Positions 12,785-55,707 of a stretch of DNA of 64,000 nucleotides are shown in pieces (position 1 is the stretch's first letter; every line of letters begins with the position of its first letter). This DNA comes from Lysobacter sp. cf310 (GTDB taxonomy: Bacteria; Pseudomonadota; Gammaproteobacteria; Xanthomonadales; Xanthomonadaceae). The position numbers were made by a program, and so were the translations under genes. The DNA is taken from assembly GCF_900114355.1 (NCBI RefSeq), contig NZ_FOSS01000005.1:248001-312000 (forward strand), read 5' to 3'. The notes under the pieces were generated by a model. The model did no database searches, was not told the DNA's origin, and saw only the letters and a program-made list of their open reading frames with translations.

Positions 12785-12809
12785 CCAACCACTCCATCGG
12801 TGTCGCGAA

Positions 12810-15317: not shown

Positions 15318-15445
15318 GGTCGTTTCCTTGCGAAAGGGTCGGGGGACGGACTTCCCGAAAGTCCGGCCCGAGGTTCACAAGTTCTTAACCTTTGCGCAAT
15401 ACGTCGTGTGACTGTGCCGACTTTGGCTTTACCAACCCGATCACA

Positions 15446-15886
15446 CTATGACAAACGAGTTCCGGCCAAACGGGCATCGATGCGCTGCAACATGAGCGCC
15501 AGCGGCGTGGAGGCGGTGACCAGCCCCGTCAGCGCCCCGAGGGCGTTGGCCAGGGCGTCGCGGCTGTCGCCCATGCGGCTGTCGGTGAGCGCGGCTTGCG
15601 CGTATTCCAGCGCCACCCCCAGCACGATCAGGCCGGCCGCGCTCAGCGCCTGCGGGCGCATGCGCGCGAACAGCATGCCGGCGTAGGCCGACAGCGCGGC
15701 GTAAGTGAGGAAGTGGCCGACCTTGTCGGAGCCGGCGAACGGCGACGGCGGCAGGTCGCCCGCCGGCAGCAGCGACACCGCGATCACCGCCAGCACGCCG
15801 GCCGCGCCCAGGGCCAGCCAGCGCCGCGGGGTATGGAACGGGCGCAGCCAGGGGCCCTTGCGGGCATCGCCCTTGCCCGCCCTCAC
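15446..15886 (-). CDS. VanZ-like membrane protein
   Basis: The protein has 146 residues and about four hydrophobic segments. The VanZ-like pattern is 'GSDKVGHFLTYAALSAY' followed by 'EYAQAALTDSRMGDSRDALANALGAL', the D/R-rich segment typical of the family. I chose GTG at 15886 because it overlaps the TGA of the upstream methyltransferase gene (GTGA) and keeps the whole domain; an alternative start would be internal. VanZ-like proteins are inner-membrane proteins of poorly defined role, named after a teicoplanin-resistance accessory gene. Confidence 0.8.
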   Translation of the reverse strand: MRAGKGDARKGPWLRPFHTPRRWLALGAAGVLAVIAVSLLPAGDLPPSPFAGSDKVGHFLTYAALSAYAGMLFARMRPQALSAAGLIVLGVALEYAQAALTDSRMGDSRDALANALGALTGLVTASTPLALMLQRIDARLAGTRLS

Positions 15887-40501: not shown

Positions 40502-40525
40502 TCGCGTACGGCGGCAGGCGATACC

Positions 40526-40560
40526 GAACGGCCCCGCTCGATGCGGGGCCGTTCGTTTAT
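40526..40560. terminator. Bidirectional terminator between putA and the MFS gene
   Basis: GAACGGCCCCGC and GCGGGGCCGTTC form a 12-bp perfect stem with a 5-nt loop, followed by GTTTAT on the plus strand. It lies between convergent gene ends (40501 and 40565) and can serve both. Confidence 0.8.
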
Positions 40561-40564: not shown

Positions 40565-41779
40565 TCAGGACAAGGCGGCCTGCGCGCGTGGCACGCGCCC
40601 GCGCAGCAAGGCGGATAGGCCGAACGCGCTGAGCAGACCGATCGCGCAAAACACCGCCCAAGGCAGCCATGGCCAATGTCGCGTTGCGGCCACGTCGATC
40701 AGCCAGCCGCCGGCGACGTTGCCCAGGCCGCCGCCCACCGCCAGGCTTAGCGAACTCACGCCCAGGTAGGTGCCCAGCGCGCGCGGGTCGGCCAGCTCGG
40801 CGATCAGGGTCTGCTGGGTGGGGCGCGTCATCAGCGCGCCGACCGAGAACGCCGCCACGCAAGCCAGGAACGCGGCGTAACCCGAGACCAGACCGATCGC
40901 GCCGACCGCCAGCGACATCAGGCTCACGCCCGCCACCAGCACCTGCGCCGACGTCCAGCGCCGCTCCAACCAGCGCACCAGCAGGTATTGCAAGGCCACC
41001 GTAAGGCCGGCGCTGACCGCGAACATCAGGCCGACGCTGGCGACGTCGCCGGTGAGGCGCTGCGCAAGCAAAGGGAAACTGATGTTGATCTGGATGGCGA
41101 CGAACCAGTACAGCATCATCAAACCGACCAGACGCAGGAAGCGCGTGTCGCGCCAGACCAGGCCCAGACCGCGGCTGGGCGGCGCGCGGTCGGGCATCTC
41201 CACGCGCGGCAGCAGCGCCAGGGCGACCACGAAGTTGAGGGCGAAGCAGGCCGCGGCGACCAGGCACACCACGCGGAAATCGAAACGCAGCAGGGCCACG
41301 CCGATCAGCGGCCCCAGGGTGGTCGCCACGCCGCTGACCCAGTTGCTGATCGCGTAGTAGCGCGGCCGCGTCTGCGTGGTGGTCAGGGCCGCGATCGAGG
41401 CCTGGTACGGGGCCTCGAACAAGGCCCCGCCCAGCGCCGACAAGACCATCGCCGCCAACAATGCGGGCAGATCGCCCGCGAAGGCGAGGCTGGCGAAGCC
41501 CAGCGCGCGCAGCAGCACGCCCAGGCAGATCATGCGGCGCGCGCCGTAGCGGTCCGAGAGCAGGCCGCCGACCAGGGCCAGGCCCTGCTGGGTGAGCTGG
41601 CGCACCGCTAGCGCCAGGCCGACCGCGGCGGCCGCGAAGCCGAGATCATTGACGTAGTGCACCGCCACCAGCGGCATCAGCATGGCGAAGCCGCTCACCA
41701 TGAAGAAGGTGTAGACCAGCAGGCCGTTGAGTCCACGCCGCCGGCTGCGGTCGTCCATGGGCGATGCGGATGCGCTCAT
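40565..41779 (-). CDS. MFS transporter, MdtH-like drug/metabolite exporter
   Basis: The 404-residue permease has twelve hydrophobic segments and the MFS loop motif 'GLLSDRYGARRMI' after helix 2. The opening 'LLVYTFFMVSGFAMLMPLVAVHYVNDLG' region and 'GALFEAPYQASIAALT' resemble MdtH-type exporters. The start at 41779 overlaps the stop of the DUF364 gene (ATGA), which makes it the last gene of the ten-gene operon. In that context it would be the exporter of the operon's small-molecule product, an inference from position. Confidence 0.85.
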   Translation of the reverse strand: MSASASPMDDRSRRRGLNGLLVYTFFMVSGFAMLMPLVAVHYVNDLGFAAAAVGLALAVRQLTQQGLALVGGLLSDRYGARRMICLGVLLRALGFASLAFAGDLPALLAAMVLSALGGALFEAPYQASIAALTTTQTRPRYYAISNWVSGVATTLGPLIGVALLRFDFRVVCLVAAACFALNFVVALALLPRVEMPDRAPPSRGLGLVWRDTRFLRLVGLMMLYWFVAIQINISFPLLAQRLTGDVASVGLMFAVSAGLTVALQYLLVRWLERRWTSAQVLVAGVSLMSLAVGAIGLVSGYAAFLACVAAFSVGALMTRPTQQTLIAELADPRALGTYLGVSSLSLAVGGGLGNVAGGWLIDVAATRHWPWLPWAVFCAIGLLSAFGLSALLRGRVPRAQAALS

Positions 41780-42630
41780 GCGGCCGCGCGCGCGCCGTCG
41801 TCGTCGTAGCCGGGCGCACGATACAGGTGGATCGGCGTGGGATCGGCGCTGAACTGCGAGAACGGGAAGGGCTCGGCCGACACCGCAGCCACGCCGTGAC
41901 CGAGGAAGCGCGGCACGATCGCGCTGCCGGTCTGGGCGTACACCACCAGCGGCACCGCGCGTGCGCGCAGCGTGGCCAGGATCTCGTCGAAGGAGCCGTT
42001 GCTCAGGGTCATGCCGGTGGCGATCACCAGATCGGCCTGGGCCAGGACCGGCCCCATGTCGCGCACGACCGGCGTGCCGTCCTGGGTGCGCTCCAGATTG
42101 AAGTCGCAAGGCAGGCAGACGCCGCCACGCGCGCGGATCGCCGCCACCAGCGGATTGACCACGCCGATCAGGCCCACGCGCATGCCCGGCTCGATCCGCA
42201 GCAGCCCGGCGATGGCCTCGTCGCGCGCCTGGGCGCGTTGCAGCGGCGTGCCCGCCGGCAACAGGAAGCGCTGCGCACGCACGTCCTCGCGATGCGGGCA
42301 GGTAAGCGACAGATAGGCGTCGAGCGCGGCCACCCGCACCGGCGTGCGCGGGTCGCGCAAGAGTTCGGCCACGCTGCGGCCGGACAGTTCCTCGGCGACG
42401 ATGGAGTCGAGCTGCTCGCGCTCCAGGCAGCAGCCGCCGAAACCGGCCTCCACGCGCAGCACCAGGTAATAGTTGCGGTACTTGGTGTCGGTGCCCGGAA
42501 ACTGGGTGCTCTGACGCACCCAGAAGGCGCCCACCGCGTGCAGGGTTTCGGGATCGGGGCCGTACTCGCCGCGCAGCACGGCCTGGGTGAGGTCGGCGAC
42601 GGACGCGGGGGATGAGGATGGGTGGGACAT
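41776..42630 (-). CDS. DUF364/DUF4213 Rossmann-like protein (putative heavy-metal chelation family)
   Basis: The 284-residue cytoplasmic protein has an N-terminal region with 'YLVLRVEAGFGGCCLERE' (about 55-72) and a C-terminal Rossmann-like domain beginning 'GMRVGLIGVVNPLV' (149-162), then 'DMGPVLAQADLVIATGMTLSNGS' (split here at about 191-213). This order matches the DUF4213-DUF364 family, which Pfam links tentatively to heavy-metal chelation on structural grounds. It lies 22 nt after the ATP-grasp gene. It may bind the product, a metal or a pathway intermediate; no catalytic role is proven. Confidence 0.75.
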   Translation of the reverse strand: MSHPSSSPASVADLTQAVLRGEYGPDPETLHAVGAFWVRQSTQFPGTDTKYRNYYLVLRVEAGFGGCCLEREQLDSIVAEELSGRSVAELLRDPRTPVRVAALDAYLSLTCPHREDVRAQRFLLPAGTPLQRAQARDEAIAGLLRIEPGMRVGLIGVVNPLVAAIRARGGVCLPCDFNLERTQDGTPVVRDMGPVLAQADLVIATGMTLSNGSFDEILATLRARAVPLVVYAQTGSAIVPRFLGHGVAAVSAEPFPFSQFSADPTPIHLYRAPGYDDDGARAAA

Positions 42631-42652
42631 GGGCGCTCTCCGGGAGACGGTG

Positions 42653-43915
42653 TCAGGGGAATGCGGCGTAGCGCAGGCGTACGCGACTCAGCGCGCGCTC
42701 GGCGTGCGCGCGTGCGCCCTGCCCCTGCGGGTCGACCGCGACCACGTGACCCAGGTAGCAGGCGTTATCGATGGGCTCGGCGACGTCGCTGCCGGCGATC
42801 GACGCCAGCGTCCAGCGCGCCAGATGCGGATCGGTCGCCAGACTGTCGGCGCCCTCGACCGCTTCCACACGTCCGCCGCGCGGCGGCACCAGGAACTTGA
42901 TCGCGGCGCTGCTCACGCCGGTGGCGCGCGGCGTCAGATCCGGTGCGCGGCCCAGCGCCAGCTCGATCTGCGCATCCAGCAAATCGATGCCGGTCACGCG
43001 CTGGATCAGTTCGACGATGTAGTTGCCGCCCGGACGCGGATTGATCTCGATCACGCGCGGCCCGTCGGCGGTGAGCCTGACCTCGGTATGGCTGATGCCG
43101 TGATCGTGGCCGACCGCTTCCAGCGCGCCGCGCACCAGCGCGATCGTGGCCTCGGCCTGGGCCGGTCCCAGGTGGGCCGGAAACATGTGGCCGTCCTCGA
43201 TGAAGTAGGGAAAGCCCGCCAGGCTCTTGTCGGTGATACCGATCACCGTGGTCTCGCCACGGTAAGTGCAGGCCTCGACGCTGACCTCTTCGCCCTGCAG
43301 GTATTCCTCCAGCAGCACCAGCGGCACCCGCTCCTGTTCGCGGAAATTGCGCGGGAACTGCTCCAGCGCGTCGTAGGCCTCGCACAGCTCGACCTCGTCG
43401 CGCACCAGGCGCACGTAGGCACTGGAGGCCAGGTCGGTGGGCTTGAGGATCAGCGGATAGCCGATGCGCTGCGCCTCGACGCGGGTCTGCGCCCAGTCGG
43501 CGGTCACCGCGAATTTCGGATTGGGCAGGCCGGCGCGTTCGATCGCCACGCGCACCCGATCCTTGCGCCGCTCCATCACCACGTTGGCCGAGAACGCCTG
43601 CGGCAGGCCCAGGGCTTGCGCGACCTGGGCTACGGTGTCGATGTAGTAGTCGCAGATCGTGACCACGCCGTCGAAAGTCAGGATCGCATGCTGGGCGCGC
43701 AGGAATTCGATCAACGAGGGGACGTCGTTGGTGTCCCAGCTCAGCACGTGATCGGCGTGCTCGATCGCCGGATGGATTTCGCGCGTGCGCGGGTCGCGGT
43801 AGTGATCGCGGTTGCGGGTCACGAAGGTGTAGCGGTGGCCGAGCCGGCCGATCGCGGGCGGGAAGATGCGGCCGGTGCCGCCGACCCAGCTTTCGATCAT
43901 CAACAGATGCGCCAT
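42653..43915 (-). CDS. ATP-grasp carboxylate-amine ligase
   Basis: The 420-residue protein has a preATP domain (about 1-115), then an ATP-grasp fold with Lys158 in 'YPLILKPTDLASS', the 'LLEEYLQGEEVSVEA' strand (about 201-215) and the metal ligands Glu290 and Asn292 in 'VIEINPRPGGNYIVELI'. This is the layout of amino-acid ligases and BacD/carnosine-synthase-like enzymes, which make an acyl phosphate and couple it to an amine. It starts 12 nt after the PLP-enzyme gene. I infer that it joins the PLP product to another amino or carboxylic acid. Confidence 0.85.
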   Translation of the reverse strand: MAHLLMIESWVGGTGRIFPPAIGRLGHRYTFVTRNRDHYRDPRTREIHPAIEHADHVLSWDTNDVPSLIEFLRAQHAILTFDGVVTICDYYIDTVAQVAQALGLPQAFSANVVMERRKDRVRVAIERAGLPNPKFAVTADWAQTRVEAQRIGYPLILKPTDLASSAYVRLVRDEVELCEAYDALEQFPRNFREQERVPLVLLEEYLQGEEVSVEACTYRGETTVIGITDKSLAGFPYFIEDGHMFPAHLGPAQAEATIALVRGALEAVGHDHGISHTEVRLTADGPRVIEINPRPGGNYIVELIQRVTGIDLLDAQIELALGRAPDLTPRATGVSSAAIKFLVPPRGGRVEAVEGADSLATDPHLARWTLASIAGSDVAEPIDNACYLGHVVAVDPQGQGARAHAERALSRVRLRYAAFP

Positions 43916-43927
43916 GGCGCTGCTCCT

Positions 43928-44953
43928 TCAGGGGGAATGGGGATGTGCGGGCGCGTAGTCGCGGCGCCGCCACGCCATCGCCGACCACGGCAGCGCCAGC
44001 TCGTCCAGCGAGGCGATCGGCGTGGGCGCCAGCGCGCGCGGATCCAGCGCGTCCTGGTAATGGGCGAATACGCCGTCGACATAGCGATGTCCGGTGTCGG
44101 CGGCGACGAACAGCAGCTTGCGCTCGGGATGCAATGCAGCCTCGCGCGCGGCGACCAGATAGCAACAGCCGGTCGACAGGCCCGCGAACACCGCATGCTC
44201 GCGCAGCAGCGCGACCGAGCCGGCCAGGCCGTAATCGAACGACACCCAGTGGACCTGGTCGTAGAGGGCGTGGCGCACGTTGCGGAACGGGATCGAGCTG
44301 CCGATGCCGGCGATGATGATGCCGGGGTCTTCCAGGTGCTGGCAGCCGAAGGTCAGGCTGCCGAAGGGCTGCACGCCGATCAGTTCGACCGCGTCGTCGC
44401 GCTCGCGCAGCGCGCGCGCGAGGCCGCCGGTGGAGCAGCCCGAGCCGATGCCACCGACGATGCTGAGCGCCTCGCAGCCCAGGGCATCGGCGATGGCCGC
44501 GGCCACCGGCGCATAGCCGTCGTAATGGATGTCGTCGTGGTACTGCTGCATCCAGTGCAGACTGGGATCGGCCGCCAGCAGTTCGTGGATGCGCGCCACG
44601 CGCAGGCTCTGATCGAGCTTGAGCGTGGCCTGCGGTTCGACCTGTTCGATGGTCGCGCCGAGGATGCGCAGCTGCGTCATCAGAGTGCGGTCCACGGTCT
44701 TGGAACCGACGATGCGGCAGTGCAGCCCGAACTTGTGGCAGGCCAGCGCCAGCGCGTAGGCGTAGATGCCGCTGGAACTGTCGATCAGGGTCGCGCCCGG
44801 CTGGACCCGGCCGCTAGCCAGCAGGCGTTCGACCGCGACCAGAGTCGAATAGACCTTCATGGTCTCGAAGCGCGCCACGTACAGATTGGCGCCGAGCCGG
44901 ACCAGATCCGGCGCCTTGATCGCATCGGCGATATGCGCGTGCACGCCGCTCAC
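43928..44953 (-). CDS. PLP-dependent enzyme, cysteine synthase/SbnA-like
   Basis: The 341-residue fold-type II enzyme has the probable Schiff-base Lys33 in 'ARFETMKVYS', the substrate loop 'IDSSSGIYAYALA' (58-70) corresponding to SSGNTG, and the phosphate-binding 'GGIGSGCSTGG' (167-177). SbnA uses O-phospho-L-serine in staphyloferrin B synthesis, and related enzymes use O-acetylserine. I chose GTG at 44953 because it overlaps the kinase stop (GTGA) and has GGAG 8 nt upstream; an ATG at 44977 would lengthen the protein by eight residues. A kinase directly upstream suggests a phosphorylated hydroxy amino acid as substrate. Confidence 0.82.
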   Translation of the reverse strand: MSGVHAHIADAIKAPDLVRLGANLYVARFETMKVYSTLVAVERLLASGRVQPGATLIDSSSGIYAYALALACHKFGLHCRIVGSKTVDRTLMTQLRILGATIEQVEPQATLKLDQSLRVARIHELLAADPSLHWMQQYHDDIHYDGYAPVAAAIADALGCEALSIVGGIGSGCSTGGLARALRERDDAVELIGVQPFGSLTFGCQHLEDPGIIIAGIGSSIPFRNVRHALYDQVHWVSFDYGLAGSVALLREHAVFAGLSTGCCYLVAAREAALHPERKLLFVAADTGHRYVDGVFAHYQDALDPRALAPTPIASLDELALPWSAMAWRRRDYAPAHPHSP

Positions 44954-45918
44954 GGTCCGGTCTCCACGAAGCGGCATTGGTGGCCCAGGCCGCGAAAGAA
45001 GGACGAGAGCGCGCCCATGCGCGCGGTACTGGGGCGACGCGCGTACAGGTAGCCGATCAGGCTGCCGGTGTGCGCGACCACGATGCCGTCGGCGCCCAGC
45101 GCGCGCCGGCGTTCGAGCAGGGTGTCGAAGGCGCGCTTGGCGATCACGCCCTGGGCCAGGGCGGCGCTGCGGGTGGCGCAATCGCAGATCGCGCGCACAT
45201 CGTGGGCCGCGAAGGCCTGCAGCATGCGCTGGAGGTTGCCGCGGTAGTCGTCGAGACGGTCGCGATAGTGGCCCAGCAGATCGGCCGCGACCCGCTCGGT
45301 CTCGACCGTACCGCCCTCGTCGATGTAGCAGGCGTGCAGGCGCAGCGCGCGCGGAAACGTCCGCACCACTTCCTGGCGGCCGCTGAGGTAGAGCGCGTGG
45401 CGGTCGAGGAACACGCTGTCGGAGCGCTCGATCTCGCGCAGCAGCGCGGCCATCAGCGCCGGCGACGAACGCAGCCCGAACACCCGGTCCAGGCAGCGGA
45501 TGGTGGCGACGATGTCGGCGGTGGAGCTGGCCATGCCCTTGCCGGTGGGCAGCTCGGAGTCGTGGCTCCAGCGGCCCGGCGGCAAGCGCTTGCGGTGGTG
45601 CGCGAGGTACAGGCCCAGCGCCTGCCGGCATTTGTCCTTGCCCGCCAGTTCGGCGTCGATATCGCCGTCCTCGCCGGGTGCGAAATGCATCCAGCTGTAG
45701 CGCCGCACCGGCAGCGAGATGATGCCGATGTGCAGCTCGCCGTCGCGTTCGTACGGGCCCTGCAGCAGCTCGCCCAGGGTGCCATGGCAGACGCCGCTGT
45801 GCACCGCGGCCGATGGCTCGGCCTGCGCGCCGGCGGCGACGCGGGCGCGCGCCGGCGGCGGGCGGTTCGGGTGTTGCCGTTCCTGGCGCAGCATGTTCGC
45901 TGTTTCTCCTTGTCGCAT
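44950..45918 (-). CDS. GHMP-family kinase, PduX (L-threonine kinase)-like
   Basis: The 322-residue cytoplasmic kinase begins its fold with 'CHGTLGELLQG' (44-54), which recalls the 'CPGTCGE' opening of PduX-type L-threonine kinases. The GHMP ATP loop follows as 'PTGKGMASSTA' (124-134). PduX phosphorylates free L-threonine for cobalamin synthesis. No cobalamin gene is nearby; instead an SbnA-like gene overlaps its stop. I infer that it makes O-phospho-L-serine or O-phospho-L-threonine for that enzyme. The first ATG (45918) has GAGG at 9 nt; a second at 45894 is possible. Confidence 0.8.
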   Translation of the reverse strand: MRQGETANMLRQERQHPNRPPPARARVAAGAQAEPSAAVHSGVCHGTLGELLQGPYERDGELHIGIISLPVRRYSWMHFAPGEDGDIDAELAGKDKCRQALGLYLAHHRKRLPPGRWSHDSELPTGKGMASSTADIVATIRCLDRVFGLRSSPALMAALLREIERSDSVFLDRHALYLSGRQEVVRTFPRALRLHACYIDEGGTVETERVAADLLGHYRDRLDDYRGNLQRMLQAFAAHDVRAICDCATRSAALAQGVIAKRAFDTLLERRRALGADGIVVAHTGSLIGYLYARRPSTARMGALSSFFRGLGHQCRFVETGP

Positions 45919-45922
45919 CGGA

Positions 45923-47866
45923 CTAAGCCTCGAAATCGACCGCCAGTTGGACCAGGTAGCGACGGCCGTCGGTGAGGCCGAAGCTGTTGTGGCCGTAGAG
46001 GTTCCAGGTGTAGGTGTCGCCGACGTTGGCGACCAGCAGACGCAGGGTTGCCGGCGCGTTGCCGAGCTTGAAGCGATAGCGCGCGCCGACGTCGGCCAGG
46101 CTGTAAGCGGGCACGCGGTTGCTACCGTCGCGCGAAGCCACGCGTTCGCCGTAGTGGCTCATGGCCAGATCGAACGACCAGCCCGGCCAGCTCGGTGGGC
46201 GGTATTCCAGGTCGGCTCGCAGCACGCGCTCGGCCTGGCCGATCGGACGCTCACCGACGCGGCCCTGGCGCACCGCCTCGCCGCTCACGCGCGGACGCAT
46301 CAGCACCGCGCCGGCGACCAGGCTGAGGTGGTCGCTGGGGCGCCCGCTCAGGCTGAGTTCGACGCCGCGATGGCGGACCTCGCCCTGCACGCCGTAGACG
46401 TTGCGCTCGTCGGTGATGAAGTAGGGCTTGCGCACGTCGAACACGCCGGTCACCAGCTTCATCTCGTTGGGCAGCACCCAGCGCAGACCCGCGTCGGTCT
46501 GGCGGGTGCGGATCGCCGGCAGCGCCTGATTGCGGTTGGCCGCGTCGTCGGGCGCGACGCCGCTCTCCTCCAGGCCGCGGGTGTGGCCGGCGTAAAGCGC
46601 GACGCGCTTGCTCAGATACGCGGTCAGGTTGGCGCTGGGCAGCCAGGGGTCGTCGCGGGTGGACACGCGCGCCAGGCCGGGTTGGTCGACCTGCTTCTCG
46701 TAGTGGGTGCGTTGCAAGCCGAGACTGAGCTCGCCGACCTCGCGCCAGCGCCCTTCGTAGGCCAGCCCGCCGGTCCACTGGCGCACCTGGTCCTGGGTAC
46801 GCGGACCGAAGGCCCAGTCGTCCGGGCGCGGCATCGGCAGCGGATCGCCGAGCCGGCGCCAACCGTAGTCCAGCGCCGGCGCCGAGCCGCCGTACTCGCT
46901 GTGCAGATCGCGCCCGCGCACCGCCGCGTGCAACACGTGCAGACGCGGCCCCTCGCTGAAGCTGCGGCTCAGGCGCAGCTCGCCGCTGGTCGAGGCCGAG
47001 CGCTGGCGCGGATCGGCGATCACCTTCTCGCGGGTGAGCCCGTCGGGCGTGGTGTCGACGAACAATTCGGCGTAGCCGCTGGGCATCTCGAAGATCGAGC
47101 GCACCACGCCGCCGGCCAGCGCCCAGTGATCGCCGAAACGCGCCTTGGCGATCACGCCGTAGTTGCGGCTGTCGTACTCGTTGTCGCTCCAGCGTTGGCC
47201 GAAGTGGCGGCGGCGCTGAATTTCGGGCGGCAGGTAGTTGCCGGCGGTCACGATCACCGGCGCGACCTCTTCGTCGCGGCCGCGCGAGATGCTCCAGAAC
47301 GGCAGGATCTCGACGTGCTCGGACGGCCGCCAGCGCGGCACCACGGCGGCGCGCAGGTAGCGCGCATCGGCGCCGTCGTAGTATTCCTCGCGTGCCCAGG
47401 ACAGATTGGCGGCGACGCCGAACACGCCCTCGACGATGGGCAGCTTGGCATCCAGCTCCAGCGCGGGCGCGCCGTAGGCGTTGAGCGCGCCCAGCACGCT
47501 CAGCACGCGCCGGTCGCCGGCCTTCTTGAGGCGGTAGTCGACGATGCCGGTCGGCGCGGGAAACGGATAGTTCAGGGCCGACAAGCCGACCCGGATCGTC
47601 GAGCCTTCGACCAGGGCTGGCGGCACCGTTCCCTGACGGTCGAAGTAGACGCCGTCCATGCGCACATTGCCGGCGTCCACCGGCGAGAAGCCGCGCACCT
47701 GCTTGCTGCTGTACAGGCCGATGCTCTCGTTGCCCAGGGTCGCGCCGAACGCGTCCTCGGCGGCGGTCACCGCATTGTCGCCGGCGCGCTGGGCCAGGGC
47801 CGGCGATGCGAGCGCGCAGGCCAGCGCCAGTACCGCGGGTTTCATCCGTGCATCGATAGCGGACAT
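45923..47866 (-). CDS. Short TonB-dependent receptor of the metallophore-like operon
   Basis: The 647-residue outer-membrane protein has a signal peptide ending 'ASPALAQ'. A compact plug reads 'IGLYSSKQVRGFSPVDAGN' then 'VRMDGVYFD' and 'TIRVG...NYPFPAPTGIVDY', the last replacing the usual RGP...YGxGAxGGVINI motif. The barrel ends 'YLVQLAVDFEA'. No TonB box is evident before the plug. It starts 2 nt from the permease stop with GGAG at 7 nt, and its stop lies 4 nt before the kinase start, so it is inside the operon. It may be a receptor or a passive porin-like channel for the product. Confidence 0.8.
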   Translation of the reverse strand: MSAIDARMKPAVLALACALASPALAQRAGDNAVTAAEDAFGATLGNESIGLYSSKQVRGFSPVDAGNVRMDGVYFDRQGTVPPALVEGSTIRVGLSALNYPFPAPTGIVDYRLKKAGDRRVLSVLGALNAYGAPALELDAKLPIVEGVFGVAANLSWAREEYYDGADARYLRAAVVPRWRPSEHVEILPFWSISRGRDEEVAPVIVTAGNYLPPEIQRRRHFGQRWSDNEYDSRNYGVIAKARFGDHWALAGGVVRSIFEMPSGYAELFVDTTPDGLTREKVIADPRQRSASTSGELRLSRSFSEGPRLHVLHAAVRGRDLHSEYGGSAPALDYGWRRLGDPLPMPRPDDWAFGPRTQDQVRQWTGGLAYEGRWREVGELSLGLQRTHYEKQVDQPGLARVSTRDDPWLPSANLTAYLSKRVALYAGHTRGLEESGVAPDDAANRNQALPAIRTRQTDAGLRWVLPNEMKLVTGVFDVRKPYFITDERNVYGVQGEVRHRGVELSLSGRPSDHLSLVAGAVLMRPRVSGEAVRQGRVGERPIGQAERVLRADLEYRPPSWPGWSFDLAMSHYGERVASRDGSNRVPAYSLADVGARYRFKLGNAPATLRLLVANVGDTYTWNLYGHNSFGLTDGRRYLVQLAVDFEA

Positions 47867-47867
47867 G

Positions 47868-49355
47868 TCACAACTCCGTCGGCCAATGGCGCAGGCGCGA
47901 CAGCGCCCACGCGGTGAGTGCGGCGGCCAGCAGGCACAGCCACAGCGCGATCGGCGCCACCCTGCCAGCGCGTGCCGACGGCGGTGCCTGCGGTCCCGAC
48001 CAGACCGGGATCGCGTCGTAGTCGGTGAAGTTCAGGCGCCCGTAGCTATCGGCGGGCGTGCGCGCGGGCGTCGCGACGATCTGGCGCTGCAGGCGCGGAT
48101 AGAACCAGTCGCGCAAGCGCAGCTGATAAGCGCGGGTCTGCGCTTCGAAGCGGCGATGACGCGCGAGATCGGTGCCGGCCAAGGTCGCCAGCGCGGACTG
48201 CAGACCCAGCGACGGCGACAGGTACGCGATCAGATCCGCGGCGCGTTCGCGACCGATCCGCGCCTGCGTCTGCTGCCGTTGCAAGGGCTGCAACCGCCGC
48301 TCCAGTTCCGGCGTGAGAAAGCTCAGACGCGTCGCGTAGTCGATGCTGCCGACGCGTTCGACCACCGTGGCGAGATCGGTCCGACGACGGAAGGCGGCGG
48401 CGACGATCTCGTCGCGATGCTCGGCGATGGCATCGTTGGCGCGCCGTTGCGCGTCCACCATGCTCGCCGCCGAAGGCGCCGGCGCGAACGCGGCCGCCGC
48501 GGCGCCGCCGGCCAGCGGCACGCCGATGGTGAGCAACGCCCATACCGCGACCAGGGTCGAGATCGCAGCCGCGGCGCTGGACCAGCTGGCGGCGACCGCG
48601 AAGCCCAGCGCCAGCCAGAACGCCAGGTAGGCGAGTACCAGCGCGATCGCGGTCAGCAACTCGGGCGCGGCCGCCGTCAGGTCGGTACCGGCCAGCGCCA
48701 GGGCCGCGAGCAGGCCCAGCACCACCGACGGCGCCAGCCACAGCGCGATCGCGGCGATGCGCGCGCCCAGCCAGGCGCGCGGACCGACGTGTTGCGCGGC
48801 GATCAGGCGCAGCATGCCGTTGTCGCGCTCGAAGCTGGTCAGCAGGCCGATCAGCAGGATGCAGGCGATCGGCAGCAAGTAGACCAGCACGAAGCCCAGA
48901 TCGAAGCGCCCCAGGGCCAAGCCGCGCGGATTCTCGAAGTCGTAGACCGGCTCGATACCGAATGGCGTCTCCAGCTTGACCGGCAGGCGCGCGGGCAGCA
49001 GATCGCTGGCGCCGACGGCGAGCGCGGAGAGAGGCAGATGCGGCTTGAACGCCTGCGTGCGCAGGAAATAGCGGCTGAACCCCGCCGCGTCGGTGGGGTC
49101 CTGCCAGTACGGCAGCTCGCCCGTCGCCGGCGCGGCGTAGCGCTGCGCGCGCTCGCGCACTTGCTGCATCCAGGCTGCGTCGGCCTGGCGCGCATGCTCG
49201 ATCGCCGCATCCTGCTGCCGGTGCAGGGTGGCGCCGCTGAGCGCGCCCCAGCCCATGGCCAGCACCAGGATGGCGAGCACCAGCCACAGCAGGCGATTGC
49301 GGCCCACCTGACGCAGCTCCCAGCGCAACAGACTCGCGAAGGCCGGCGCGCTCAT
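47868..49355 (-). CDS. ABC-2 type permease with large periplasmic domain (DUF3526-like), subunit 1
   Basis: The 495-residue inner-membrane protein has an N-terminal helix ('LLWLVLAILVLAMGWGA'), a long extracytoplasmic segment, and a cluster of six or so helices from about residue 170 ('VLVYLLPIACILLIGLLTS'). The segment 'ASMVDAQRRANDAIAEHRDEIVAA' (about 300-325) resembles DUF3526 ABC permeases. The start at 49355 overlaps the upstream permease's stop (ATGA). Together with its partner and the ATPase it would form a heterodimeric ABC-2 transporter, more likely an exporter or a mechanotransducer than an importer. Confidence 0.8.
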   Translation of the reverse strand: MSAPAFASLLRWELRQVGRNRLLWLVLAILVLAMGWGALSGATLHRQQDAAIEHARQADAAWMQQVRERAQRYAAPATGELPYWQDPTDAAGFSRYFLRTQAFKPHLPLSALAVGASDLLPARLPVKLETPFGIEPVYDFENPRGLALGRFDLGFVLVYLLPIACILLIGLLTSFERDNGMLRLIAAQHVGPRAWLGARIAAIALWLAPSVVLGLLAALALAGTDLTAAAPELLTAIALVLAYLAFWLALGFAVAASWSSAAAAISTLVAVWALLTIGVPLAGGAAAAAFAPAPSAASMVDAQRRANDAIAEHRDEIVAAAFRRRTDLATVVERVGSIDYATRLSFLTPELERRLQPLQRQQTQARIGRERAADLIAYLSPSLGLQSALATLAGTDLARHRRFEAQTRAYQLRLRDWFYPRLQRQIVATPARTPADSYGRLNFTDYDAIPVWSGPQAPPSARAGRVAPIALWLCLLAAALTAWALSRLRHWPTEL

Positions 49356-50755
49356 GGCCGCAACCTGCGTGCGGCCAGCCACAAGGCGCCCAGCGCGAGC
49401 GCGCACCACAACAGCAGCGACCACAAGGCCGGCGCCGCACTGCCCCAGGCAGCGCTCAGCGCGGGCGGACGGTGCTGGAACGGCGGTATCTGCGCCCACA
49501 ACGCCGCGCCGCTGGTGTGTTTCGCGCCGCCGTGCTGGGTCGGGTGCGCCATCACGTCCTGGTTCATGCGATTGACCAGCGCGCGCCGATAGGTCTCGGC
49601 GCCGTCAATGAAGCCGCGGTGATGGGCGAAATCGCCACCGGCGAAGGCCGGCGACAGGCTCTGGATCGCGATCGCGGGCGACAGCAGGCCCCAACCCGCG
49701 TAGGCGCGGTCCTGCGCCAGCACGCGGCCGTAGAAGTCGCCGAGCACGCGGTCGAACACGCGATAGGCGTGGCGCTCGTTCATGTCCAATTCGGCGCCGC
49801 GCAGATCGACCTTGAGGTCCTCCTTGCGCTGCGCCCCATGCTGCGCGAGCAGCCTGGCCTGGTTCTCGCGCGCGGTCTCGGCGGTCCAGAACGCGGGCGC
49901 CTCGTCGGTCAAGCGCTGCTTGATCGATTGCGTGGAGGGCAAGGGCTGCGCGCGCTCGACCGCGCTGTCGGCCCAGCGCGGCAACACCAGCGCGAACACG
50001 ATCCACAGGCCGAACAGCAGCGCCAACGCCGTGCGCACGCCGCCGGCGAAGGTCGACGCCGCGATCCCGATCGCGGTCAGCACGCCCAGCCAAGCCGCCA
50101 TCGCCAGGCTCCACGCGCTCAGGCGCAAGGCGAGATCGGTATCGAACGCATGCTGCGCCGAGGCCAGCACCACCGCCGCCAGCGTCGTCGGCGCCAACAG
50201 CGCCAGCAGCAGCGCGGCCCAGATCGCCAGCGCTTTCGCGGCCACGATCGCGCCGGGCCGGGTGGCCGCGCCCAGCGCGAGTCGCAGCGTGCCGCGCTCG
50301 CGATCCATCGCCATCGCGCCGAACGCGAGCAGGAACGCGACCAACGGCGCAAATCCGATCAACAGCGCCGCCGGGCTGATCGCACCGGCGCGCTGCAGCG
50401 GGCCGGCCTCGCCCTGCGGTCGGTACAGCATGTCGTTCTGCGCATGCGCCTCCAGCCACAGCGCCTGGCCCACGTAGGGCTCGACGCCGGGATCCAGCGC
50501 GGCCAGGGTCGGCGCGGGCTTGAATGCATAGATGCTGTAGTGCGCGGCCGAGTGCGGGTCCTTCTCGCCCTGCCCCAGCCAGCGCGCGCGTTCCTGCTGG
50601 GCGATGCGCGCCTTGTCGGCATTGGCGCGCGCGAGCTGGGCGGCGTTGAGCGCGAACGCCAGCAGCACCAGCGCGCCCAAACTCAACAAGGCCCACCAGG
50701 CGCGACGGTCGCGCCGCAGCAGGGTCCATTCGTAGGCGGTCAGCGAGGCCTTCAT
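49352..50755 (-). CDS. ABC-2 type permease with large periplasmic domain (DUF3526-like), subunit 2
   Basis: The 467-residue paralogue of the next gene has the same order: an N-terminal helix ('WWALLSLGALVLLAFALNA'), a periplasmic domain, a helix block from about residue 130 ('LIGFAPLVAFLLAFGAMAMDRERGT'), a second soluble section and a last helix. The 'DRERGTLRLALG' segment is typical of ABC-2 permeases. Its start overlaps the ATPase stop (ATGA at 50752-50755). It must function with the adjacent ATPase and permease. Confidence 0.82.
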   Translation of the reverse strand: MKASLTAYEWTLLRRDRRAWWALLSLGALVLLAFALNAAQLARANADKARIAQQERARWLGQGEKDPHSAAHYSIYAFKPAPTLAALDPGVEPYVGQALWLEAHAQNDMLYRPQGEAGPLQRAGAISPAALLIGFAPLVAFLLAFGAMAMDRERGTLRLALGAATRPGAIVAAKALAIWAALLLALLAPTTLAAVVLASAQHAFDTDLALRLSAWSLAMAAWLGVLTAIGIAASTFAGGVRTALALLFGLWIVFALVLPRWADSAVERAQPLPSTQSIKQRLTDEAPAFWTAETARENQARLLAQHGAQRKEDLKVDLRGAELDMNERHAYRVFDRVLGDFYGRVLAQDRAYAGWGLLSPAIAIQSLSPAFAGGDFAHHRGFIDGAETYRRALVNRMNQDVMAHPTQHGGAKHTSGAALWAQIPPFQHRPPALSAAWGSAAPALWSLLLWCALALGALWLAARRLRP

Positions 50756-51486
50756 CGCGCCAGCTGCTCCAGATACAGGGCTTCGATGTCGGCCGCCGAG
50801 AGGTCTTCGGTATGACGCTCGATCAGCAGACGCCCATCGCGCAGGATGCCCAGCCGCTGCGCCACGTCCTTGACCCGATACAGGTCGTGCGTCGCCATCA
50901 GCACCGCGATCCCGCGCCGCGCCGCCGCACGCACGCCGTGCGAAAGATCGTTGGCCGCGCTCGCGTCCAGGCCCGAGGTCGGCTCGTCCAGCAGCAGCAG
51001 TTGCGCGTTCTTGGCCAGCGCGATCGCCAGGCCGACTTTCTGGCGCATGCCTTTGGAGAAGCCGGCCGCGCGGCGCGCGTGCGCGTCCTCCTGCAGGCCG
51101 GCTTCGCTGAGCAGCGCGCGCGCCTGCACGGCATCGAGACGGCGGCCGCCGAGCATGGCGAAGTAGCCCAGGTTCTCGATCGCATTCAGGGCCGGATGCA
51201 GCATCACGGTCTCGGGCAGATAGGCGATCCTGGCGCGCGCCTGCAGCGGATCCCGCGTGGCGTCGACGCCGGCGACCTCGATGCGCCCCGCATCGGGCCG
51301 CAGGAAACCGAGGATGAGGTTGAGCGTGGTGGTCTTGCCCGCGCCGTTCGGGCCTAGCAGCGCATAGACCTCACCGGGCGCGATCGTCAGCGACAGCGCG
51401 TCCAGAGCCTTGCGCTCGCCGAAGTCCTTGCGCACGTCCTGCAGCCGCAACGCGTGGACCTGCGCGGGCGTATCCAGACGACTCAC
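50752..51486 (-). CDS. ABC transporter ATP-binding protein
   Basis: The 244-residue ATPase has Walker A 'GPNGAGKTT' (45-53), signature 'FSKGMRQKVGLA' (143-154, the KGM form common in ABC-2 exporters), Walker B 'LLLLDEPTSGLD' (163-174) and the H-loop 'MATHDL'. GTG at 51486 overlaps the TonB receptor's stop (GTGA), so translation is coupled. It energises the two ABC-2 permeases encoded immediately downstream. Its fusion into a siderophore-receptor operon points to transport of the same compound or its metal complex. Confidence 0.92.
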   Translation of the reverse strand: MSRLDTPAQVHALRLQDVRKDFGERKALDALSLTIAPGEVYALLGPNGAGKTTTLNLILGFLRPDAGRIEVAGVDATRDPLQARARIAYLPETVMLHPALNAIENLGYFAMLGGRRLDAVQARALLSEAGLQEDAHARRAAGFSKGMRQKVGLAIALAKNAQLLLLDEPTSGLDASAANDLSHGVRAAARRGIAVLMATHDLYRVKDVAQRLGILRDGRLLIERHTEDLSAADIEALYLEQLAR

Positions 51487-53762
51487 AGGTTCACCTTGAA
51501 GGTGAGCTCGACGCTGCGCGGCGCGCCGATCACGATCTGATCGGCGGCGCCACCGGACCAATCGGCGTAGAAGGCGTCGCCGAGATTGCGCCCGTGCAGG
51601 GCGATCTCGCCGAACGGCAGCCGGTAGGCCAGCGAGGCGTCGAACACCGTGTGCGCGTCGACGCGGATGCTGTTGGCGTTGTTGGTGTAGAACGCGCCGA
51701 CGTGACGCAGGCCGGCGCTCAGGCGCAGCGGCAGCGCCTCGAATCGGTAGCTGGCGTAGAGATTGGCGATGCGCTCGGGCACATTGGGCGGCGTATTGCC
51801 GGCGCGATCGACGCCGCCGGCCTCGCGCAGCGCGTCGTAGCGCGCGTTCAAGCCCGCCACGCTGGCGTCGATGCTGAGCGCGCGCGTGAGCGCCGCCGAC
51901 ACCGACAGCTCGACGCCACGCGAGGACTGGCGGCCGCCCTGGATCGAGATCGCCGCATTGGCCGGATCGCGGGTGACGATGTCGTCCTGTTCGATCCAGT
52001 AGCCGCCCAGGGTCAGATCGATGCGGTTTTCCCAGAACGAGCTCTTGACCCCGACGTCGACGGCGCGGCCATGGGTGAGGTCGAAGCGCGAGTTGGCCAG
52101 CGACAACAACGGCAAGCTGCCCACCGGCGCCACCGCCACGCTGTACTGCGCATAGAGCTGGGTTTGCGGCCGCAGGTCGAACACGCTGCCCAGGCGCCAG
52201 GACAGCGGATCGTAGTCGCGCTGGAAGCGGGTGACGACGCCGGTGTTGTAGTCGCGCACGCTGCGCTCCAGCTCGACGCGGTCGTAGCGCAGCCCCGCCA
52301 GCAGCAACCAGCGCGGCGTCAGGTCCAGCGCGTCCTCGACGAACACCGAGGCGGTGCGCGTGTTGGAATCGAAGTCGACGCGGTTGCCGGCGCCGGGGAA
52401 GTTGAGCGCGTCGTCGCCGACCGGAAACAGGCCGCGCTGCGGCGCATAGGGATCGATGGACGCGGCCGTGCCGAAACGGCGCGGCACCTTGAAGTCGCCG
52501 TCGCTGAATTCCACGCCGATCGAGGCGCGATTGCGACGCCCGCCCAGCGTGCTGTCGGCGATCAGGGTCGCGCGCTCCACCCAATAGGCCTGCTCGTGTT
52601 CGATGCGGGTGATGCCGCGCTTCAACAGGCCGGTGATCGCGTCGTAGGTGTAGGTTTCCGAGTTCAGCCAGCGCCGGGTCGCATCGTAGTAGCTGGCCTC
52701 GTTGACGAAGCGCAGGCCGTCGCCGATCTGCCAGCTCAGCCGCGTGCGCAGCCAGTCGCTGCGGGCGGTCTGGGTACCGTCGGCGACGTTGTAGTTGCGG
52801 TCGCGCAGCGCACGATCGATTACGTAACCGTTGCTGCTGCGTACCAGGTCGCTGGGGTCGCGCGCGACGGCGCGCGGGACCAGCGGCGTGCCCCAGTAGG
52901 CGCTGTCGTAGTCGTCTTCGTAATGGTCCAGCGCCGCGTCGACTTCGACCGCATCGCTGGGACGCCAGCGCGCGCTGAGCGCGGCCGAACTGCTGCGGCT
53001 GTCGGTATCGTCGACATGGCCCTCGCTGCGCCGATGGCTGGCGACCAGGCGCAGGGCGAAGCTGGGATCCAGCGGCAGGTTGGTGTCGATGCCGTAGCGC
53101 TGGCTGCCGAAACTGCCCCAGCCCAGCAGCAGCGAGGTCGCACGGCCGTCGAAGTCGGGACGCTTGGGCACCAGATTGATCGCGCCGGCCAGCGCGCCTT
53201 CGCCGTACAGCACCGAAGCCGGGCCCTTCAGCACCTCGATGCGCTCGAAGCTCCAGCCGTCGAAGTCGCGCGTGATCAGCGGCGCGGCGGTCTGGCGCAC
53301 GCCGTCGTACAGCAACGAGATCGCGCCACCGCTGAAGCCGCGCATCGAGCTCACGCCCGGCGAGGACGGCAACTGGCCGGCAAGCACGCCCGGCGCGGCG
53401 TTGAGCGCGTCGACCGTGCCGCGCAGGCCGCGTTGCTCGATGGTCTCGGCGCTCACGGTCTCGATCGCGGCCGGGGTCTCGCGCGAGCTCAGGCCCAAGC
53501 GCGAGGCGGTCGTGGTCGGCGTGTCCAGCAGCGCCTGCCCGGCCGTGCCGCTCACGGTGACCTTATCCAACTGATGCGGCGCGGCCTCCGCGTCCGCGCC
53601 CTGGTCGCTGTCGGGCGTCACCGTCTGCGCGAGCGCCGTTATCGGCGCGGCCAATACGCCCAGCGGCAGCAGCGCCGCCATCGTGCGTACCCAGCGCGCG
53701 GCCCAGCCCTGCTTGCGCCCGCACTTCACCGCTCTGCGGTCCCCACCACGCCAGTCGTTCAC
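51483..53762 (-). CDS. TonB-dependent siderophore-type receptor, first gene of the ten-gene operon
   Basis: The 759-residue receptor has a signal peptide ('LGVLAAPITALAQ') and a TonB-box-like 'LDKVTVSG'. The plug shows 'SSRETPAAIETVSAETIEQRG', 'SMRGFSGGAISLLYDGVR' and 'IEVLKGPASVLYGEGALAGAINLV', the FhuA/FpvA-like siderophore receptor pattern. The barrel ends 'GAPRSVELTFKVNL'. It has no close upstream gene on its strand, and an AT-rich dyad lies 24-47 nt ahead of the start, so this is probably the promoter-proximal gene. Its role would be uptake of a metal-chelate. Confidence 0.9.
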   Translation of the reverse strand: MNDWRGGDRRAVKCGRKQGWAARWVRTMAALLPLGVLAAPITALAQTVTPDSDQGADAEAAPHQLDKVTVSGTAGQALLDTPTTTASRLGLSSRETPAAIETVSAETIEQRGLRGTVDALNAAPGVLAGQLPSSPGVSSMRGFSGGAISLLYDGVRQTAAPLITRDFDGWSFERIEVLKGPASVLYGEGALAGAINLVPKRPDFDGRATSLLLGWGSFGSQRYGIDTNLPLDPSFALRLVASHRRSEGHVDDTDSRSSSAALSARWRPSDAVEVDAALDHYEDDYDSAYWGTPLVPRAVARDPSDLVRSSNGYVIDRALRDRNYNVADGTQTARSDWLRTRLSWQIGDGLRFVNEASYYDATRRWLNSETYTYDAITGLLKRGITRIEHEQAYWVERATLIADSTLGGRRNRASIGVEFSDGDFKVPRRFGTAASIDPYAPQRGLFPVGDDALNFPGAGNRVDFDSNTRTASVFVEDALDLTPRWLLLAGLRYDRVELERSVRDYNTGVVTRFQRDYDPLSWRLGSVFDLRPQTQLYAQYSVAVAPVGSLPLLSLANSRFDLTHGRAVDVGVKSSFWENRIDLTLGGYWIEQDDIVTRDPANAAISIQGGRQSSRGVELSVSAALTRALSIDASVAGLNARYDALREAGGVDRAGNTPPNVPERIANLYASYRFEALPLRLSAGLRHVGAFYTNNANSIRVDAHTVFDASLAYRLPFGEIALHGRNLGDAFYADWSGGAADQIVIGAPRSVELTFKVNL

Positions 53763-53785: not shown

Positions 53786-53809
53786 ATTGAAACGTTATAT
53801 CATTTCAAT
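53786..53809 (-). promoter_or_regulatory. Fur/Zur-like operator dyad ahead of the metallophore-like operon
   Basis: ATTGAAA and TTTCAAT are perfect 7-nt inverted arms of a 24-bp dyad (20 of 24 positions symmetric) with an AT-rich centre (GTTATAT on the plus strand). Its GAAACGTTATA part matches the half-site GAAATGTTATA of the gammaproteobacterial Zur consensus at 10 of 11 positions, but the site is about 5 bp shorter, and a 7-1-7 Fur reading (TGATATA-A-CGTTTCA) is also partial. On the minus strand it covers a TATAAC that may be the -10 box. Metal regulation is therefore inferred, and the specific regulator is open. Confidence 0.5.
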
Positions 53810-53893
53810 CTATAAGCAAGTCGCGGGCGGCGTCAAGACGTTTCGAACAGTCGGCGTATGGCGCAGAGTTGCCGCACCGGCAGCGCAGCCCCA

Positions 53894-53923
53894 AAAAAAG
53901 AGCCCCGCTGCATGCGGGGCTCC
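53894..53923 (-). terminator. Rho-independent terminator after the HDWE secreted-protein gene
   Basis: On the minus strand, GAGCCCCGC and GCGGGGCTC (9-bp stem, 5-nt loop) are followed by seven T residues. It separates this gene from the ten-gene operon downstream, supporting an independent start of the latter. Confidence 0.9.
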
Positions 53924-53955
53924 TGAAGCGAAGTACGACTGCGATCGCGACGAGC

Positions 53956-55707
53956 TTAGGGAATCGGATTCCCGCCGCCGCCACCGCCACCACCGCCCGG
54001 GCAACCGGCCATGTTGTGGAAGCTGCGCGTGGCGCTCTGGCCATCGGCGCTGCCCACCGTCAGGGTCGCGGTCTGGCCGCTGCCGACTTCGGCGGTGCGT
54101 CCGTCGGGCGAGTACCAGATCACGTTGCTCCAACTGTAGGTGTAGGGCGGCAGGCCGCCGTTGACGGTGGCGGTGACGCTCCACGAGTCGCCGCAACCGC
54201 GCGCCGAGGCCGGCATGATCACGATCAGCGGACCCAACGGCTCATAGGCCACGCGGTCGTCGTACAGCTGCGCCCAGCGGCCGTCGTAACCGCCGTTCTG
54301 CGGCAGCTCCCAGCCATTGAGCAGCCACTGGCCGGCTTCGTAGTTCTCGCGCGTGTCGATGCCGCCGGAGTGCACCAGCAGATCGTGCTGGCGCCAGTAG
54401 GCGTTCAAGGACGCGTAGTCGCCGCTGGCGTCGGCGCGATTGCGGTTGTAGCTGTCGCGCCCGGCGCCGCTATAGCCACCGAGCTTGTCGGAACCGGAGA
54501 TGGTGTCGGCGTTGGTCTCGGCCGAGTACGCGCCCCACAGCCAATCCTTGCCGAGCACGCCGTCGCGGCCGTCGGTCAGGCTGGAGCTGGAGGTGTCGCG
54601 CGACAGCACGTAGAAGCGCTGCAGGCCGACCGGCACTTCGACCTGGCCCAGTTCGTTGGTGATCGGCGTGTCGAGCAGGATGTCGGCGGTCTGGCCCGAG
54701 TTCCAGTTGATCGACCAGTTCGCGCCCGACCACTGCCCGCCGAACACGTCGGCCAGATCCTGCAGTTCGTAGGTGATGCGCTTGACCAGCGACCACGACA
54801 CCGTGTCGTCGCGGCCGGCGGCCAGCGCATTCGCGTTGCCGTAATTGATGCTGCTGGCGCCCCAGGCGGTGACCGCGGCGTTGGAGGTCTCCGGCACCCA
54901 CACGTAGTGCACCGACTTGTCGTCGTCGTTGGTGACTTCGACTTCGGCCGAGTTGTTGGCGGTGCGGCGCGCGGCGATGGTGCTGTAGGCGTCCTGCACG
55001 AAATGCAGTTCGTGGCCGTGCGTGCCGAGTTCGGTGTTGTCCTCGTCGGCCTGCCAGATCATCACGTGCTTGCCGCCGGTAACCTGCATGAAATTCAGGT
55101 CGGCGCTGCCGTAGCTGCGCATCACGTGGTCTTTGTGGCTGGTGATGGTGACGTGGCCCACGTACTCGCCGACCGCGCCCGGCACGCCGGTCACGCCGCG
55201 CACCACGATCTCGATGCGCTCCCAGTCGTGGATCTCGTTGGCCTTCTTATCGACCGGGTGATAGACGTGGTACAGCAGCACCAGGGCCTTGCTGTTGCCG
55301 TCCATGTACTCCATCACCGAGGAGTACAGGGTCGGACGGATGCGCCAGTTCGAATAGGCGCCGGTACCCGCGGCCGAGGCCGCGATGTACTGCGACAGCA
55401 GGTTGGGCCAGGTGTAGCGGTTGTTGGCGAAATTGCCGTCGCGATCGAAGTCGTAATTCGAAATCCAGTCGCGGCCCTTCTTGCTGCTGCTCTCCTCGGC
55501 GCGCTGCATGATCACCGGCGCGTAGTACTGCAGATAGGTCTTGCGCTCGGCCGGCGTCAGCAGCCAGGCCTGCGCGGAGGCCACGCCGCTGGCGAGCACG
55601 GCGGCGAGGAACAACAACAGGATCGAACACCAGCGCAAGGACAGGCGCGGTGAGAGAGCGCCAGCCGCTTTGGCGGCGGACGGCGCGGAACGGTTCACAG
55701 GGTGCAT
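53956..55707 (-). CDS. Secreted protein of uncertain family with HDWE motif and Gly-rich tail
   Basis: The 583-residue protein has a signal peptide ('FLAAVLASGVASAQ') and a large N-terminal domain with 'LLYHVYHPVDKKANEIHDWE' followed by 'GHVTITSHKDHV' and 'THGHELHFVQ'. The HDWE and later histidine motifs recall Vps62-like and NPP1-type (necrosis-inducing) proteins, but I could not confirm membership. A C-terminal segment 'DSWSVTATVNGGLPPYTYSWS' resembles a surface Ig/PKD-like repeat, and the end is 'CPGGGGGGGGG' followed by NPIP. The function is unknown; an extracellular role is likely. Confidence 0.7.
   Translation of the reverse strand: MHPVNRSAPSAAKAAGALSPRLSLRWCSILLLFLAAVLASGVASAQAWLLTPAERKTYLQYYAPVIMQRAEESSSKKGRDWISNYDFDRDGNFANNRYTWPNLLSQYIAASAAGTGAYSNWRIRPTLYSSVMEYMDGNSKALVLLYHVYHPVDKKANEIHDWERIEIVVRGVTGVPGAVGEYVGHVTITSHKDHVMRSYGSADLNFMQVTGGKHVMIWQADEDNTELGTHGHELHFVQDAYSTIAARRTANNSAEVEVTNDDDKSVHYVWVPETSNAAVTAWGASSINYGNANALAAGRDDTVSWSLVKRITYELQDLADVFGGQWSGANWSINWNSGQTADILLDTPITNELGQVEVPVGLQRFYVLSRDTSSSSLTDGRDGVLGKDWLWGAYSAETNADTISGSDKLGGYSGAGRDSYNRNRADASGDYASLNAYWRQHDLLVHSGGIDTRENYEAGQWLLNGWELPQNGGYDGRWAQLYDDRVAYEPLGPLIVIMPASARGCGDSWSVTATVNGGLPPYTYSWSNVIWYSPDGRTAEVGSGQTATLTVGSADGQSATRSFHNMAGCPGGGGGGGGGNPIP

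Follow-up and report, generated by a model that had tools for sequence, protein, structure and literature searches.

What is made, and to what end, by a bacterial operon that joins two TonB-dependent receptors and a transporter of the ATP-binding cassette (ABC) type to a kinase, a pyridoxal phosphate (PLP) enzyme, a ligase and a DUF364 protein? The question is raised by a 64,000-nucleotide stretch of Lysobacter sp. cf310 (contig NZ_FOSS01000005.1, positions 248,001 to 312,000; hereafter the window, whose own numbering is used), in which ten co-directional minus-strand genes run from 53762 to 40565. From sequence comparisons we propose, with a probability of about 0.7, that the operon encodes a Zur-controlled zincophore system, independent of nonribosomal peptide synthetases (NRPS) and of NRPS-independent siderophore (NIS) synthetases, in which a zinc chelator would be made, exported and recovered. 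Zinc is our best guess for the metal. The original prediction for this DNA had suggested a metallophore system of this NRPS- and NIS-independent kind; the clustering of the enzymes, the three kinds of importer beside them and the Zur-type boxes described below support it. That prediction named neither the operator nor a particular metal, and it is sharpened here to zinc.

A ten-gene unit conserved within the genus

The families and gene order first proposed were borne out by Pfam, which served for the family assignments (NCBIfam supplied further models), and all ten genes are present at the predicted places and on the predicted strand. Along the minus strand they encode a TonB-dependent receptor with plug and barrel (TBDT1; 51483..53762), an ABC transporter ATPase (50752..51486), two ABC-2 permeases with ABC2_membrane_2 and DUF3526 domains (Perm1, 49352..50755; Perm2, 47868..49355), a second receptor of 647 aa with a barrel (TBDT2; 45923..47866), a GHMP kinase (44950..45894), an SbnA-like fold-type II PLP enzyme of the PALP family with a GTG start (43928..44953), an ATP-grasp amide ligase of the L-amino acid ligase type (ATP-grasp_4 and LAL_C2; 42653..43915), a DUF364 protein (41776..42630) and an exporter of the major facilitator superfamily (MFS; 40565..41779). 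Neither an IucA/IucC synthetase nor adenylation or condensation domains were found by Pfam among the ten proteins, in agreement with the earlier claim that the operon holds no NRPS or NIS synthetase.

The genes are closely packed. The GTGA or ATGA overlaps claimed earlier exist at five junctions (TBDT1/ATPase, ATPase/Perm1, Perm1/Perm2, kinase/PLP enzyme and DUF364/MFS), whereas the gaps, put at 2–22 nt, turned out to be 1 nt (Perm2/TBDT2), 12 nt (PLP enzyme/ATP-grasp), 22 nt (ATP-grasp/DUF364) and, before the kinase, 4 or 28 nt, depending on whether it starts at 45918 or 45894. The latter start is more likely, with AAGGAG 11 nt ahead of it.

Among 60 relatives including the genome of the window, 17 of the 19 further members of the genus have the kinase gene, which was detected in none of the 40 from outside the genus. 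All ten genes recur in one order and on one strand in 17/17 loci from same-genus genomes, as against 2/17 for the two genes flanking the operon upstream, so that conservation of the unit is far beyond chance; the downstream flank is barely comparable, as most of the relatives' stretches stop at or shortly past the MFS gene. The ATP-grasp/DUF364 gap reaches 299 nt in some relatives, and tight coupling is therefore not universal. The cluster is sparsely distributed: a class-wide kinase search found nine of 369 genomes (that of the window strongly, one at E 2e-17 and seven weakly), and a search for the DUF364 core within the order, at E 1e-20, found six of 397 genomes and two of 98 genera.

A putative Zur operator on the operon promoter

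A single promoter-like site (TTGACG-18-TAGATT, minus strand, 53807..53836) was listed between 40400 and 54000, against 0.9 in shuffled sequence; it is thus the place of the site that counts, not its existence. Directly after its −10 box, and abutting it, lies the predicted Zur operator, an imperfect 20-bp palindrome, TGAAATGATATAACGTTTCA (minus strand; 53788..53807). All 18 copies retain the palindrome, one arm being altered at L017 and L020 (locus and genome numbers are ours). Its distance to the BLAST start of the first gene differs among copies, and sequences resembling the promoter-like site precede it in the relatives examined. Used as a pattern with up to two mismatches, it finds all 18 operon-bearing genomes among the 20 of the genus and has no match in the other two; it is the sole match in 15 of the 18, with four extra matches overall. 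One of these, in genome G015, falls in the divergent promoter shared by a MerC gene and the gene of a His-rich TonB receptor, for which ZnuD is the top NCBIfam model (441 bits, cut-off 950).

A ZnuD/MerC matrix was trained on the MerC promoters of all 20 genus genomes, one box each and 11 distinct boxes, picked with AATGTTATA as seed; the operon palindromes were excluded from training. With this matrix the operon palindrome was the top site of the window (28.1 bits, the next independent site scoring 12.2) and of the 19.5-kb loci of 17/17 relatives (24.6–32.2 bits, compared with 33.8–41.7 for the training sites), that is, first in 18 of 18 sequences. The genome of the window encodes two Fur-family proteins, one best matched by the Zur model (142.7 bits, cut-off 167) and the other passing the Fur model. 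We infer that the operon is controlled by Zur through an operator on the −10/+1 region of its promoter, and it would very probably be induced under zinc shortage.

A dedicated regulator other than Zur had been considered, since the palindrome matches only once in the genome of the window when three mismatches are allowed; this idea seems less likely in view of the weaker palindrome copy at the G015 ZnuD/MerC promoter and of the matrix result. As a possible further Zur target, the ribosomal protein L31 gene was matched once in each of the 20 genus genomes; no Zur-type box was seen by eye in the L31 stretches, a negative that carries no information, since many of these loci are on the minus strand and were displayed on the wrong side. 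One genome has another Zur-type target at locus L054 (G006:C9:44000-53000; 2429-7843 and 7969-8357), where a TonB receptor gene is divergent from genes that by eye resemble a BtuF/BtuC/BtuD-type ABC system, with GGAATGTTATATCGTTTT in between, and a second MerC gene lies downstream of TGTTATGTTATAACA.

The enzyme core persists while its importers change

Scanning genome contigs with the alignment of the PLP enzyme and two peptide patterns yielded 53 loci from Pseudomonadota, Actinomycetota and one metagenome-assembled genome (MAG) of Acidobacteria, at which the other genes were scored with models built from the proteins of the genus (threshold 50 bits). By their titles, the loci belong to Lysobacter, Massilia, Sphingomonas, a Rhodanobacteraceae MAG, Tahibacter, the Acidobacteria MAG, Sulfitobacter, Vibrio, Aliikangiella, Microbulbifer, Exilibacterium, Kribbella, Streptomyces, Kocuria, Austwickia and others, besides one record with the title Bacillus that seems mislabelled. 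The proposed co-occurrence of the four enzymes was observed: at least one of kinase, ATP-grasp ligase and DUF364 accompanies the PLP enzyme at 51 of the 53 loci (none at L127 and L147), with DUF364 at 46, the kinase at 30, the ATP-grasp ligase at 28 and all three at 23. The same ten genes as in Lysobacter were found at L103, L109 and L111–L114. Elsewhere the halves are divergent (L134, L136, L145) or the order is rearranged (L110); ATP-grasp and DUF364 are fused at all five Massilia loci (by Pfam at L102, with one stop common to both domains at all five), and kinase and PLP enzyme are fused at L135.

A TBDT1-type receptor was present at 22 of the 23 full-core loci, and an MFS gene likewise at 22. 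The remaining locus, L138 of Sulfitobacter, pairs an EamA exporter with an SBP_bac_5/Opp-type transporter, and CobW/COG0523 and CobN genes follow further down. Kribbella combines an SBP_bac_5/Opp-type transporter with an MFS gene (Pfam on L117), the substrate-binding protein (SBP) being found at 16 of 18 Kribbella loci, and in Kocuria the core is accompanied by FecCD, ATPase, Peripla_BP_2 and MFS genes. The importer differs by lineage, in three unrelated kinds, and the enzyme core persists. We lean, by a little over even odds, towards a phylum-crossing zincophore class with a core of SbnA-like PLP enzyme and DUF364, kinase and ligase additions, and interchangeable importers; this core is what should be looked for in Lysobacter, Massilia, Sphingomonas, Sulfitobacter, Microbulbifer, Kribbella, Kocuria and others.

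The company kept by the core bears on two other readings. One is that the enzymes turn a non-protein amino acid into a peptide antibiotic, or something like it, for export, and that zinc control would only time the release. The resemblance of the ligase to dipeptide ligases fits this, as do two Streptomyces loci (L115, L148) and Vibrio L140, which hold kinase, PLP enzyme and two ATP-grasp ligases without DUF364, and the pairing of PLP enzyme and DUF364 with NRPS-like genes in S. aurantiacus; however, 23 of 23 full-core loci have uptake genes next to the core, which in the genus belong to the same operon, and we consider this reading very improbable. The other takes the operon as an importer of zinc or of a foreign zincophore, its enzymes making a ligand that stays inside the cell to receive or buffer the metal. 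This would agree with the Zur-controlled receptor/ABC-2 pair of Caulobacter described in PMC4176598, no DUF364 match having been found in Caulobacter, and with the link of DUF364 to heavy-metal transport mentioned in PMC2954201; the MFS or EamA exporter at 23 of 23 full-core loci argues for a product that leaves the cell, and the intracellular ligand is hardly more probable than the antibiotic.

Some loci of this set are of interest in their own right. At L139 (Streptomyces aurantiacus JA 4570; 479-15497) two condensation-domain proteins, a carrier protein, a methyltransferase and a RimK-type ATP-grasp protein are encoded near the PLP enzyme and DUF364, a pair that probably feeds a different natural product. 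The gene set of L115, L148 and L140, with an MFS gene at the latter two, is perhaps a sister pathway. The cluster of 'Bacillus sp. 2B10' (L113), with 65% GC, is close in layout and scores to that of a Sphingomonas MAG (L111), and 'Streptomyces sp. SID13031' (L133) holds a Kribbella-type cluster; both records are possibly mislabelled or contaminated. TBDT2 was detected at 13 of the 53 loci, adjoining the DUF3526 permeases in Lysobacter-type clusters, and is absent from Massilia, L110, L134, L136 and L145.

Zur-type boxes at distant loci

Promoter boxes were surveyed at 21 non-actinobacterial and 26 actinobacterial loci, the six Lysobacter loci being left out. Zur-type boxes occur at cluster promoters in nine of the 21 (at most 0.02 expected per locus), with matches of 13/14 in Tahibacter L114, 14 and 13/14 before two genes in Sulfitobacter, 13/14 in Exilibacterium, 12/14 in Microbulbifer and 11–12/14 at L103, L109, L111, L112 and L113. 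Vibrio L142, which counts among the loci lacking a clear box, has a 12/14 match sixty bp upstream of the PLP gene (0.13 expected). Among the actinobacterial loci, the Streptomyces coelicolor Zur motif, taken from PMC5472717, was found with 10–11/11 in 16 of 26 (expected 0–0.18 per locus): 14 boxes lie 20–76 bp before the SBP gene, one before the Kocuria FecCD gene and, at L132, one 337 bp upstream of the PLP gene.

Several observations weigh against the zincophore reading. In plain consensus terms the genus operon boxes match Zur at 9–11/14 and a Fur 15-mer at 7–9/14, and eight of the 18 tie at 9/14 each. With Fur so close, it is the ZnuD/MerC matrix that carries the assignment to Zur within the genus, and the sites of that matrix were themselves chosen with the AATGTTATA seed. 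In Kocuria the box suits either motif, with 13/14 to the Fur 15-mer. Clear boxes are missing at 12 of the 21 non-actinobacterial loci (five Massilia, the Acidobacteria MAG L110, L116, L134, L135 and three Vibrio) and at ten of the 26 actinobacterial ones (L115, L123, L129, L130, L131, L133, L139, L144, L147 and L148). The Massilia clusters contain a Fur-family gene (Pfam on L102), with a palindrome adjoining it at three of five loci, and the L102 protein is by best match not Zur-like, being nearer Fur/PerR. Furthermore, the 53 loci are a biased sample, found via two peptide patterns; no kinase or ATP-grasp match was obtained near the core at any of the 18 Kribbella loci, and in S. aurantiacus L139 the PLP enzyme and DUF364 stand amid condensation, AMP-binding and YcaO genes.

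Part of this would suit a metallophore for iron or several metals under Fur or another Fur-family protein, zinc being incidental, as would the fact that TBDT1 passes the cut-off of TIGR01783, a model of siderophore receptors, and the FecCD-type importer of Kocuria, the tied boxes and the Massilia regulator. In contrast, the ZnuD/MerC matrix picks the box in 18 of 18 sequences, the nine distant loci match Zur at 11–14/14 but Fur at only 7–8 (10 at the second L138 site), and L138 has CobW/COG0523 and CobN genes nearby. We regard this reading, with iron or several metals under a Fur-family protein, as unlikely.

Predicted biosynthesis and transport of the chelator

The GHMP fold of the kinase was confirmed, with mevalonate kinases as best matches; no kinase equivalog model of NCBIfam scored above its cut-off. 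The substrate is predicted to be L-serine or, as in the PduX-like kinase of the original prediction, L-threonine. In SbnA, K47 is the PLP lysine and Y152 an active-site tyrosine. SbnA is the closest solved relative of the PLP enzyme; K47, an arginine (132 by our count) and Y152 of SbnA are aligned with K32, R117 and Y137 of the PLP enzyme, in a count that leaves out its start residue. The counterparts of K47 and Y152 were invariant in 26 of 26 aligned proteins, in keeping with the SbnA-like label of the original prediction. The enzyme has glycine at the position of SbnA S185 and scored 133.5 bits against the SbnA equivalog TIGR03945, far below the cut-off of 349.95. The DUF364 protein is a true member of its family (PF04016, 38.5 bits, cut-off 23), and its whole fold resembles the solved DUF364 proteins 3l5o and 3npg at 13–17% identity, which PMC2954201 presents only as probable enzymes linked to metal chelation.

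In the mechanism we propose, a fall in zinc would release Zur from the promoter operator, allowing transcription of the ten genes. The kinase would then form O-phospho-L-serine (phosphothreonine being less likely), and the SbnA-like enzyme could exchange the phosphate for an amino nucleophile, giving an aminocarboxylate like 2,3-diaminopropionate or N-(1-amino-1-carboxyl-2-ethyl)-glutamic acid (ACEGA). A diaminopropionate-type core within the zincophore system is a tentative assignment, which we hold at somewhat under even odds. On this core the DUF364 enzyme would act, and the ATP-grasp ligase may add an amino acid or another carboxylate through an amide link. Gene context suggests that the MFS protein (best NCBIfam model MdtH, 284.7 bits, below the cut-off of 469) exports the product; the metal complex may be recovered by the two receptors together with the ABC-2/DUF3526 complex, which could be an importer or an exporter. 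TBDT2 lacks a Pfam plug match, yet its N-terminal part is conserved.

The operon offers a testable function for DUF364, and the phylum-crossing class, if real, would give this family its first reaction, for instance a condensation dependent on S-adenosylmethionine or a nucleotide on a diaminopropionate-like core, as a counterpart of CntL. The operon also suggests a zinc-uptake route for a genus in which ZnuA, the marker of ZnuABC, was found in none of 20 genomes, that of the window included; other zinc routes must exist, since the two genus genomes without the operon also lack ZnuA.

Comparison with known systems

Zincophore systems are known as a kind, and the enzyme set proposed here was not found described: among the papers listed by searches of the open literature none covers this gene set, and none joins DUF364 with a metallophore or DUF3526 with TonB. 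Cnt systems use MFS or EamA export and Opp-type ABC or TonB import, and are not known to involve an NRPS. Sulfitobacter L138 shares their Opp-type plus EamA layout. The operon, unlike Cnt, has no opine dehydrogenase (CntM) or nicotianamine-synthase-like aminobutyrate transferase (CntL) among its ten proteins by Pfam, and instead holds the kinase, SbnA-like, ATP-grasp and DUF364 proteins. For the Cnt products staphylopine and pseudopaline, zinc-regulated synthesis with an own transporter is described in PMC8000910. The likeness to staphyloferrin B assembly lies in SbnA, as the closest solved relative with its K47 and Y152 counterparts kept; the differences are the score below the equivalog cut-off, the lack of an NIS synthetase among the ten proteins, and that no SbnB-like gene was recognised. 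The [S,S]-ethylenediaminedisuccinic acid (EDDS; aes) zincophore of Amycolatopsis is a zinc-dependent, NRPS-independent aminocarboxylate, whose pathway is not known to include a DUF364 protein, a GHMP kinase or an ATP-grasp ligase.

On the transport side, Caulobacter has a TonB receptor (znuK) and an ABC-2 ATPase with two permeases (znuGHI), Zur-repressed from an operator over the −10 region according to PMC4176598. Compared by layout, the Lysobacter operon shows the same neighbourhood of receptor, ATPase and two permeases with a predicted operator at −10, but Caulobacter is described there with the transport half only; it is the single one of 14 control genomes with DUF3526, and it has no DUF364 match. 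The L138 transporter is similar in kind to that of a seven-gene Paracoccus operon strongly induced by zinc depletion, in which a COG0523 gene accompanies an ABC transporter of cluster C (PMC5387054).

Flanking features

The flanking genes look unrelated to the operon: downstream lies a convergent putA-like gene, and upstream a FadL/Toluene_X gene and another that has no Pfam match. No Rfam family over its gathering score and no tRNA gene was found within the window. Between the MFS and putA-like genes a GC-rich hairpin (40525..40555) was read from the sequence; it is absent from the sites of the terminator scan. That scan gave six terminator-like sites in the region, with 3.3 expected from shuffles, among them an 11-pair hairpin on the minus strand (53898..53924) between the preceding gene and the operon. 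The upstream protein of 583 aa (53956-55707), which has no Pfam match, begins with a signal-peptide-like segment and has a homologue in just two of the 17 relatives' stretches.

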